DNA of 64,000 nucleotides, taken from Aquirufa ecclesiirivi. Its GTDB lineage: Bacteria; Bacteroidota; Bacteroidia; Cytophagales; Spirosomataceae. Where the stretch lies: positions 310,001-374,000 of the forward strand of contig NZ_JAANOP010000002.1 in assembly GCF_011250515.1 (NCBI RefSeq), in the 5' to 3' direction. Every line of letters starts with the position of its first letter. Position 1 is the stretch's first letter. A program made the position numbers and the translations under genes. This document shows, in pieces, positions 57,832-59,494 of the stretch. A model generated the notes under the pieces. It did not search any database, had not been told where the DNA came from, and saw only the letters and a program-made list of their open reading frames with translations.

Positions 57832-57854
57832 ACAATACTAAGTTTACAAATTAA
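57813..57854. repeat. three 14-bp direct repeats
   Basis: Units at 57813-57826 (AGTTGACAAATCTA), 57827-57840 (AGTTGACAATACTA) and 57841-57854 (AGTTTACAAATTAA). The first is part of the inverted repeat, and the third contains the ABC-F stop codon, so the tandem array runs into the gene's 3' end. Confidence 0.65.
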
Positions 57855-59457
57855 CTCGTTGTAATTTTACTGTATTATCACTAATGAATTCATCATAGGT
57901 CATTAATTTATCCAAACAAGATTTTGCACCTAGTTCAATGACACGATTGGCCACTGTATTCGTTAATTGGTGGTCATGACAAGTGAATAAAATAGTACCT
58001 TGAAACTCCATCATTCCGTTGTTCAAAGCCGTAATTGATTCCAAATCCAAGTGATTGGTTGGCTCATCAAACAATAAGACGTTCGCGCCTGATAACATCA
58101 TTCGAGAGAACATACAACGTTGCTTTTCTCCTCCAGAAATTACCGTACATTTTTTCAAGGCTTCATCTCCCGAAAACAACATTCTTCCAAGGAAACCACG
58201 GATAAAACTTTCATCTTTTTCACTTGAATATTGGCGTAACCAATCCACTAAATTCAAAGAATCATCTTTAAAATAGGACGCATTATCGTTGGGTAAATAG
58301 GTTTGTGTTGTTGTTACTCCCCATTTAAAATCTCCTGCACTGGCTTTTCTTTCTCCCATCAAAATATCAAATAAAGCAGTAATAGCTAAGGAATCTTTCG
58401 CTAAAAAGGCCACTTTATCTCCTTTATTAATGGTAAAAGATAAATTAGAGAACAAAGTAATTCCTTCCTCTGTTTTATATGACAAATTTTCTACACTCAA
58501 TAACTGATCACCAGCTTCACGCTCTGGCTTAAAATTGATGAAGGGATATTTTCGGGAAGAAGGTTTAATATCCTCCACTTGTAGTTTATCCAACATTTTC
58601 TGGCGTGCCGTAGCCTGTTTGGATTTAGCCACGTTTGCAGAGAATCGGCGAATGAATTCTTCCAATTCTTTACGTTTCTCGTCCGTTTTCTTATTTTGAT
58701 CAGTACGCTGTCTTGCAGCTAATTGAGATGATTCATACCAAAATGTATAGGTTCCACCATACAACTGAATCTTTCCAAAATCTAGGTCAGCAATGTGCGT
58801 ACATACATTATCTAAAAAGTGTCTGTCGTGCGAAACAACAATCACCGTATTTTTAAAATTCTGCAAATACCCTTCCAACCACATGATGGAATCAATATCC
58901 AAGTTGTTGGTAGGCTCATCTAACAATAATATATCCGGGTTACCGAATAAAGCTTGAGCTAATAGCACCTTCACCTTCTCCGATCCATTGATATCCTTTA
59001 ATAAAGAATAATGAATATCCTCTTTGATCCCTAAACCACTCAATAAAGTAGCCGCCTCTGATTCTGCTTCCCATCCGTTTAACTCAGCAAATTCGGCTTC
59101 TAAATCAGCCGCTTTATTTCCATCAGCTTCTGTAAAGTCCTCCTTCATATAGATGGCGTCCTTTTCCAACATGATATCATACAAACGCTTATTTCCCATA
59201 ATCACCGTTTGTAATACAGGGAAATCTTCGAATTCAAAGTGATTCTGTTTAAGAATCGACATACGCTCACCAGGATTCATGCTAATACTTCCTGTTTGAG
59301 AATCTATTTCACCAGAAAGTATCTTTAAAAACGTCGATTTACCTGCTCCATTGGCGCCGATTAATCCATAACAGTTCCCTTCCGTAAATTTGATATTTAC
59401 CTCTTCAAATAACACTCTTTTCCCAAATCTTAGGGAAACATTAGACACCTGCAACAT
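57844..59457 (-). CDS. ABC-F family ATPase (YbiT-like)
   Basis: The ATG at 59457 (MLQVSNVSLRFGKR) gives 537 residues; the frame extends 36 bp further. Two ABC domains without membrane segments are joined by a charged linker (about 268-292, RRFSANVAKSKQATARQKML), the P-site tRNA-interaction motif of ABC-F translation factors. Domain 1 has Walker A GANGAGKS (34-41) but a changed signature, INGSEKVK (156-163). Domain 2 has a degraded Walker A (AKDSLAIT, 353-360) but an intact signature ISGGEKQR (440-447) and Walker B LLFDEP (461-466). One ATP site would thus be canonical and the other degenerate. It acts on ribosomes by family analogy. Confidence 0.92.
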   Translation of the reverse strand: MLQVSNVSLRFGKRVLFEEVNIKFTEGNCYGLIGANGAGKSTFLKILSGEIDSQTGSISMNPGERMSILKQNHFEFEDFPVLQTVIMGNKRLYDIMLEKDAIYMKEDFTEADGNKAADLEAEFAELNGWEAESEAATLLSGLGIKEDIHYSLLKDINGSEKVKVLLAQALFGNPDILLLDEPTNNLDIDSIMWLEGYLQNFKNTVIVVSHDRHFLDNVCTHIADLDFGKIQLYGGTYTFWYESSQLAARQRTDQNKKTDEKRKELEEFIRRFSANVAKSKQATARQKMLDKLQVEDIKPSSRKYPFINFKPEREAGDQLLSVENLSYKTEEGITLFSNLSFTINKGDKVAFLAKDSLAITALFDILMGERKASAGDFKWGVTTTQTYLPNDNASYFKDDSLNLVDWLRQYSSEKDESFIRGFLGRMLFSGDEALKKCTVISGGEKQRCMFSRMMLSGANVLLFDEPTNHLDLESITALNNGMMEFQGTILFTCHDHQLTNTVANRVIELGAKSCLDKLMTYDEFISDNTVKLQRVNL

Positions 59458-59488: not shown

Positions 59489-59494
59489 CTCATT

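Follow-up and report, generated by a model that had tools for sequence, protein, structure and literature searches.

One consensus and one degenerate ATP site in a YkpA-type ABC-F protein of Aquirufa ecclesiirivi

ABC-F proteins are usually described as two-ATP machines, and the gene at positions 57844 to 59457 of the window (the whole stretch of Aquirufa ecclesiirivi DNA analysed here, 64,000 nucleotides) raises the question of whether both ATP sites are needed. In ABC proteins, each site combines the Walker A, Q-loop, Walker B and H-switch of one domain with the signature of the other. We use site I for the domain-1 Walker A together with the domain-2 signature, and site II for the domain-2 Walker A together with the domain-1 signature. 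The composite build of ABC ATP sites is also given in a review of degenerate ABC exporters (PMC7756269).

The gene and the two ATP sites of its product

An alternative start lies 36 nt upstream of the gene's start, at 59493; the alignment of relatives begins at the Met chosen in the preliminary description of this DNA. Pfam assigned PF00005 (ABC_tran), in two stretches, and PF12848 to the product, with no membrane family among the four reported. The protein has the composition by which we recognized ABC-F members, namely tandem ABC domains and an ABC_tran_Xtn/PtIM linker with no membrane domain. In other ABC-F proteins, the PtIM linker is the segment that reaches the P-site tRNA. The AlphaFold model of the window protein (mean pLDDT 87.8) shows ordinary ABC folds for both domains, and its best 28 Foldseek matches are all of ABC-F or eEF3 type. 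Among solved structures, E. coli YbiT on the ribosome (9njf) comes nearest, with 42% identity and an E value of 4.1e-148 by sequence and a TM score of 0.82 over 531 alignment columns relative to the model. The nearest curated model, the NCBIfam YbiT equivalog NF011646, scored 629.3 bits, which is below its cut-off of 762 and places the protein outside that equivalog. Judged by its sequence, the gene is a Bacteroidota member of a YkpA-type ABC-F clade and close kin of E. coli YbiT. Its features are listed below, with counts taken from the survey described in the next section, in which "clade" denotes the YkpA-type proteins.

57844..59457, minus strand: ABC-F ATPase gene, YkpA/YbiT-like, 537 aa plus stop (translation, Pfam, tree)
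59335..59358, minus strand: domain-1 Walker A GANGAGKS (34-41), site I, intact; canonical in 171/171 of the clade
59245..59247, minus strand: domain-1 Q-loop Gln71, site I, intact; 171/171 of the clade
58969..58992, minus strand: domain-1 signature INGSEKVK (156-163), site II, degenerate; SGG core in 2/171 of the clade, 12/66 YbiT-type and 29/29 other ABC-F
58906..58929, minus strand: domain-1 Walker B LLLDEPTN (177-184), site I, intact; DE in 171/171 of the clade
58828..58830, minus strand: domain-1 H-switch His210, site I, intact; 171/171 of the clade
58531..58788, minus strand: inter-domain linker / PtIM, Pfam ABC_tran_Xtn, residues 224-309; 68.1 bits, cut-off 25.9
58468..58470, minus strand: domain-2 A-loop aromatic position (Glu330), site II, lost; aromatic in 8/171 of the clade, 66/66 YbiT-type and 29/29 other ABC-F
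58378..58401, minus strand: domain-2 P-loop position AKDSLAIT (353-360), site II, degenerate; canonical in 0/171 of the clade, 66/66 YbiT-type and 29/29 other ABC-F
58288..58290, minus strand: domain-2 Q-loop position (Asn390), site II, lost; Gln in 5/171 of the clade, 66/66 YbiT-type and 29/29 other ABC-F
58117..58140, minus strand: domain-2 signature ISGGEKQR (440-447), site I, intact; SGG in 171/171 of the clade
58054..58077, minus strand: domain-2 Walker B LLFDEPTN (461-468), site II, kept here; in the clade, Asp in 169/171, Glu in 126/171 and Gln in 22/171
57976..57978, minus strand: domain-2 H-switch His494, site II, kept here; His in 139/171 of the clade

The preliminary description had reported the motifs GANGAGKS, INGSEKVK, AKDSLAIT and ISGGEKQR and an intact Walker B, all of which are present at the residues it named when 57844-59457 is translated. 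It had also reasoned that the two losses fall on a single composite site, formed by the domain-2 Walker A and the domain-1 signature, and spare the other, which is borne out. It was right to name the P-loop and the signature, but the list was incomplete: site II of the window protein lacks a P-loop, the Q-loop Gln (N390 instead), the A-loop aromatic (E330 instead) and the SGG core (NGS instead), and it retains the Walker B Asp-Glu pair and the H-switch His. The AKDSLAIT motif is common to the three closest relatives, at 95-98% identity, and to a fourth protein, L005, at 89%. Sequencing error or chance was rejected as the source of this motif, which is found in four relatives within a clade that has no canonical P-loop at this position.

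The decay of site II is not general to the ABC-F proteins of this organism, because three others encoded in the same genome (L277, L278 and L279) have two canonical sites, each with two GxxGxGK[S/T] motifs, two SGG cores and two Walker B motifs ending in DEPT. Elsewhere in the genome, outside the window, weak split ABC_tran matches occur at G000:C26:190807-192195 and G000:C32:151362-153884, within frames of 954 and 947 aa that are possibly UvrA-like proteins.

A YkpA-type clade with the same pattern

Relatives were collected by whole-genome searches. In the window's family, 57 of 61 genomes contained a match, one in each (E<=1e-100; the match in G023 is partial), and in its phylum 87 of 296 genomes did (E<=1e-90). 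The gene is near-universal in the family, yet 209 of the 296 sampled genomes of the phylum are without a match at E<=1e-90, so that it looks patchy at that depth. At E<=1e-95, matches were found in 36/149 genomes of the phylum of a Bacillus genome, 53/120 of that of a Spirochaetia genome, 71/199 of that of a Shewanella genome and 17/118 of that of a Desulfobulbaceae genome, where the phylum assigned to the surveyed genomes is that of the named locus at the centre of each search. These limits let in YbiT-type as well as YkpA-type matches; the best match in the Shewanella phylum, L208, is 50% identical and has a site II that is canonical save for the signature. We read as sequence 30 of the 57 family rows, 28 more from the window's phylum (8 new loci and 20 fetched), 36/36 rows of the Bacillus phylum (two surveys of which covered nearly the same genomes and were counted once), 44/58 of the Spirochaetia phylum, 30/77 of the Shewanella phylum and 18/18 of the Desulfobulbaceae phylum. 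At least 80 named loci were added from a collection scan with the patterns [LM]DEPTNxLD and SHDRHFL[ND], together with nine annotated records. Reading frames were chosen by BLAST. Removal of five partial or broken loci of 276 (L014, which has an in-frame stop, and the incomplete L117, L250, L255 and L256) and of six duplicates left 266 non-redundant proteins, and the counts derived from them refer to sampled species rather than independent events.

The domain-2 P-loop divided this set into 171 proteins in which it is not canonical and 95 in which it is, comprising 66 YbiT-type and 29 other ABC-F proteins. The 171 form exactly one clade in a FastTree phylogeny of all 266 rows from which the motif columns had been removed (support 0.81), and the same clade was recovered with 87 representatives, 53 of them clade rows (IQ-TREE LG+C20, motif columns removed, support 100/99). 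Since the clade was first picked by its non-canonical P-loop, the P-loop count alone is circular; the motif-free tree and the counts for the Q-loop, A-loop, Glu and His are not. The window protein (P0001) and the Bacillus protein L039 group together, apart from E. coli YbiT (100/99 without motif columns), which makes the window protein YkpA-type. Named members come from Bacteroidota, Bacillota (B. velezensis), Spirochaetota, Fusobacteriota, Mycoplasmatota and Thermodesulfobacteriota, at least these six phyla, and this breadth is a lower bound, as the collection scan used two patterns and covers the matches listed. By inference, B. subtilis YkpA would also belong to the clade, given the position of B. 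velezensis L039 and the report that YbiT of B. subtilis goes by the name YkpA (PMC6723617). E. coli YbiT and a spirochaete group join at 93/61 in the IQ-TREE phylogeny, such that a sister relation of the clade to them is moderately supported, and the older fork that unites E. coli-type YbiT, the spirochaete group and the YkpA clade is at 100/99.

Two sets of genomes carry further relatives. Five Bacteroidota genomes (L048-L052, families f28, f47 and f48) encode a YbiT-type protein with roughly 40% identity, in which the domain-2 P-loop is intact and the domain-1 signature is PTD or PND; the two of these included in the 87-row tree group with Chlamydiota and Acidobacteriota rows. Four genomes of the phylum of the Spirochaetia locus L089 (G526, G598, G613 and G622) have two matches each, one at 58-59% identity, which is YkpA-type (the sequences read were those of G526 and G598), and one at 37-43% with canonical sites (L262-L265), which indicates that the two kinds can share one genome.

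We then compared the two sites across the set. Each of five site-I elements (Walker A, Q-loop, Walker B DE, H-switch and domain-2 SGG) is canonical in every clade member. The domain-1 A-loop aromatic is present in 165/171 clade members but in only 20/29 other ABC-F proteins, which makes it a weak control. At the site-II P-loop, no clade member is canonical; Gly1 is kept in 98, Gly4 in 29, Gly6 in 2, Lys in 67 and Ser/Thr in 165. Lys is found in 1 of 65 Bacteroidota clade members (a list compiled by hand from kinship and titles) versus 66 of the 106 others. We scored six site-II elements: the P-loop glycines, Lys, Q-loop, signature, Walker B Glu and H-switch His. Clade members have lost three (47 proteins), four (76), five (46) or all six (2), whereas YbiT-type proteins have lost none (11) or one (55, one of which is a C-terminal gap in L119) and none of the 29 other ABC-F proteins has lost any. 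In all 171 proteins, then, site II has lost at least three of six elements next to a consensus site I, and the changes are confined to one composite site, which matches the motif pattern of ABC ATPases with a degenerate site. A comparison of columns, which is less circular, points the same way. YbiT-type and other ABC-F proteins share 39 columns with a uniformity of at least 97% in each group, and 11 of these drop below 90% in the clade; nine of the 11 are site-II motif columns and two lie elsewhere (284 and 487), with 0/16 from site I (Fisher p ~1e-5, columns not being independent).

By these counts, the motif loss is a trait of a whole lineage and not peculiar to one genome, although its reach differs from what the preliminary description had suggested. 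A pattern general in Bacteroidota is too narrow an account, given the five further phyla, and a feature of YbiT-type ABC-F proteins generally is too wide, as all 66 YbiT-type proteins outside the clade, including E. coli YbiT, keep the domain-2 P-loop. The co-occurrence of the two losses holds for nearly all of the clade, where the full SGG domain-1 signature remains in L047 and L069 only, but not beyond it, where the signature core is non-SGG in 54 of 66 YbiT-type proteins with an intact P-loop. The preliminary description had named a lack of co-occurrence across species as evidence against its interpretation, and such a lack is seen in part.

Readings of the degenerate site

The explanation that we favour, and consider probable, is that the protein is a housekeeping E-site ABC-F factor of the YkpA clade that would run on one hydrolytic ATP site. 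As judged from its motifs, site II is almost certainly dead in catalysis, and in the lineage of the window protein we lean towards weak or no nucleotide binding at this site. Several observations count against this explanation: the catalytic Walker B Glu and the H-switch His persist in most clade members (126/171 and 139/171) and in the window protein itself, the P-loop Lys is retained in 67/171, and the predicted Mg ligands of site II are mostly kept, with Ser/Thr in the P-loop of 165/171 proteins and the Walker B Asp in 169/171, which fits residual nucleotide binding.

The same ligands and Lys residues lend some support to a tentative alternative, that site II binds Mg-ATP tightly without hydrolysing it and that this static ATP glues the domains together, as has been proposed for degenerate sites of ABC exporters. 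The exporter review describes MgATP as a stationary hub and includes Pdr5, which has Cys in place of Lys (PMC7756269). However, very few clade members retain the A-loop aromatic (8/171), the Q-loop Gln (5/171) or Gly6 of the P-loop (2/171), Lys survives in a single Bacteroidota member of 65, and the exporter pattern consists mostly of changes to the signature and Walker B, with Walker A changes named in the cited part of that review for ABCG5/G8 and Pdr5. We therefore regard a static ATP as possible but doubtful.

Repurposing of site II, whether to bind a different ligand or to serve as a fixed structural contact that is itself selected for, is unlikely. It would account for some residues that are common in the clade at the decayed site, such as Ala at P-loop position 6 in 136/171 proteins, a His two residues after the H-switch His in 156/171 and a Lys after the signature core in 171/171, although YbiT-type proteins share this last residue (62/66). 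Across the entire protein, only five columns combine at least 95% uniformity in the clade with a frequency below 10% in YbiT-type proteins, and V162 is the only one of the five in a site-II motif. Moreover, Ser356 and Ile359 rank in the 90th and 88th entropy percentiles within their domain, and signature positions 157 and 159 in the 95th-96th, which fits drift; Glu465 (54th), His494 (45th) and A358 (46th) are middling.

Decay of the gene as a whole, in which case the motif losses would mean little, is very improbable. The motifs of one site are lost and 5 of 276 loci are partial or broken, but one match each in 57 of 61 family genomes and the intact site I throughout the clade speak against it, as does conservation that is no lower than in YbiT-type proteins (mean entropy 1.09 bits in domain 1 and 1.10 in the linker versus 1.21 and 1.36). 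A second P-loop that is intact but displaced, or an error in the sequence, found no supporting point and is refuted: the alignment of homologues revealed no shifted P-loop, with GxxGxGK[S/T] in the C-terminal part of 0/171 clade proteins and a stretch around 353-360 that is gap-free in most alignment rows. The AlphaFold models had seemed to offer a structural counterpart, a collapse of the domain-2 P-loop into a helix, which we rejected because motif position 4 is where the helix begins both in the window protein (residue 356) and in L109 (residue 354), a YbiT-type control with the canonical GPNGAGKT. These models were built without nucleotide from alignments largely common to both proteins, and they say little for or against nucleotide binding.

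Under the single-site explanation, the protein would be a soluble factor for which homology predicts binding to the ribosomal E site, with the PtIM linker pushed towards the peptidyl-transferase centre so as to help stalled ribosomes; for the window protein, E-site binding is inferred from YbiT structures on the ribosome (9njf). ATP would close the dimer, hydrolysis would occur at site I only, and site II would act as a protein-protein hinge. The two sites of M. tuberculosis EttA take turns in engaging nucleotide, with rotation of the 30S subunit, and NBD2 moves by about 5 degrees in closing NBS-II (PMC8782954). A YkpA-type factor would go without the site-II half of that cycle: the nucleotide-dependent half of the NBS-II step is not expected in it, and one ATP would time closure and release. 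For the fuller proposition, in which site II is nucleotide-free, a single ATP at site I times both the ribosome-bound closed state and release, and EttA-type alternation is dispensable in at least six phyla, we see the case as evenly balanced.

The window gene most likely encodes a housekeeping E-site factor for difficult nascent chains, because L039 is 66% identical with the same decayed site II and because of data on B. subtilis YkpA and E. coli YbiT. Loss of YkpA/YbiT in B. subtilis causes mild stalling on poly-Lys and poly-Glu, with poly-Arg stalling the most (PMC11381351), and the EQ2 variant of E. coli YbiT inhibits protein synthesis (PMC6723617). L039 (B. velezensis WP_104843312.1) resembles the window protein over its full length and, as a member of the same clade, combines an intact site I with a decayed site II, although the residues differ (LGGSEKVK and GRNELAVT versus INGSEKVK and AKDSLAIT). 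The functional data on stalls at charged motifs belong to B. subtilis YkpA (PMC11381351), whereas the window gene is known from sequence.

Other systems share parts of this pattern. E. coli YbiT (9njf, NP_415341.1) has the same domain plan and a degenerate domain-1 signature but retains the domain-2 P-loop, the Q-loop Gln and the A-loop aromatic. M. tuberculosis EttA is likewise an ABC-F E-site factor with tandem ABC domains, but all six motifs are described at both of its sites, and both bind nucleotide (PMC8782954). Pdr5-type transporters pair one consensus site with one that is altered in all four of Walker A, Walker B, H-loop and signature (PMC7756269); they differ in being membrane exporters and in that NBS1, with the domain-1 Walker A, is degenerate rather than NBS2. 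Degenerate ATP sites are common among ABC exporters, and in human full-length ABC proteins the degenerate site is said in the same source to be always NBS1 (PMC7756269). ABCE, which the preliminary description had cited as a canonical/dead pair, does not serve as a precedent, as the sites of ABCE1 are described as both consensus and unequal in function (PMC12937102; PMC6124641). In the openly accessible literature, we found no description of a degenerate site in YbiT, YkpA or another ABC-F protein; earlier notice is possible, including in the primary paper for 9njf, and the site-II pattern is readily visible to an experienced eye in any YkpA alignment. What appears to be new is a degenerate NBS2 in a soluble translation factor, degenerate sites as such being already known from ABC transporters.

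A clade with a dismantled site II challenges the usual two-ATP description of ABC-F proteins and makes it testable whether entry to and exit from the ribosome take one or two ATP hydrolysis events. A change of Glu to Gln at Walker B is the EQ trap used in laboratories. The single-site explanation predicts that an EQ substitution in site I alone would trap the protein and that one in site II would be without effect. The latter change is natural in 22 of the 171 clade members, L043, L047, L056, L067, L085 and L197 among them; at the same position, twelve have Asp and four have Thr, among them L042 of Bacteroides finegoldii.

Order of loss

In the IQ-TREE phylogeny, rows outside the YkpA clade that have an SGG signature (L266, L119, L251, L252, L264 and L262) branch early. 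They are followed by a group of Acidobacteria (QGG) and Chlamydia/Bacteroidota (PTD) and then by E. coli-type YbiT (APG), the spirochaete group (TGG) and the YkpA clade. From this branching order of signature types in a motif-free tree, it appears most likely that the SGG core of domain 1 was lost first, before the split from E. coli YbiT and while the domain-2 P-loop was still intact; E. coli YbiT itself has the signature VAPGWK alongside an intact GTNGVGKS P-loop. The P-loop glycines, A-loop and Q-loop of domain 2 were likely lost on the YkpA stem, and Lys, the catalytic Glu and His of site II likely changed repeatedly thereafter, with 17, 14 and 10 changes inside the clade, respectively (Fitch parsimony on the FastTree topology). 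The order applies to the SGG core only. A clean first-step loss of the signature Ser did not hold up, as 27/171 proteins of the clade have Ser at that position, and Fitch parsimony counts 19 changes of it within the clade. Such graded decay, in which E. coli YbiT represents the step with only the signature changed, constitutes a natural series of intermediates.

A looser pattern, G-x4-GK[S/T], has four matches in the C-terminal parts of the 171 clade proteins. Two of them, in L098 and L102, lie elsewhere than the P-loop position (GTVxxGKT). The other two fall at the P-loop position itself: L153 and L156, which come from the phylum to which the Bacillus locus L069 belongs and are nested in a group of 18, have GPNSIGKT there, near to a generic Walker A. 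This motif may reflect either slow decay or partial restoration, and site II of the two proteins may bind ATP.
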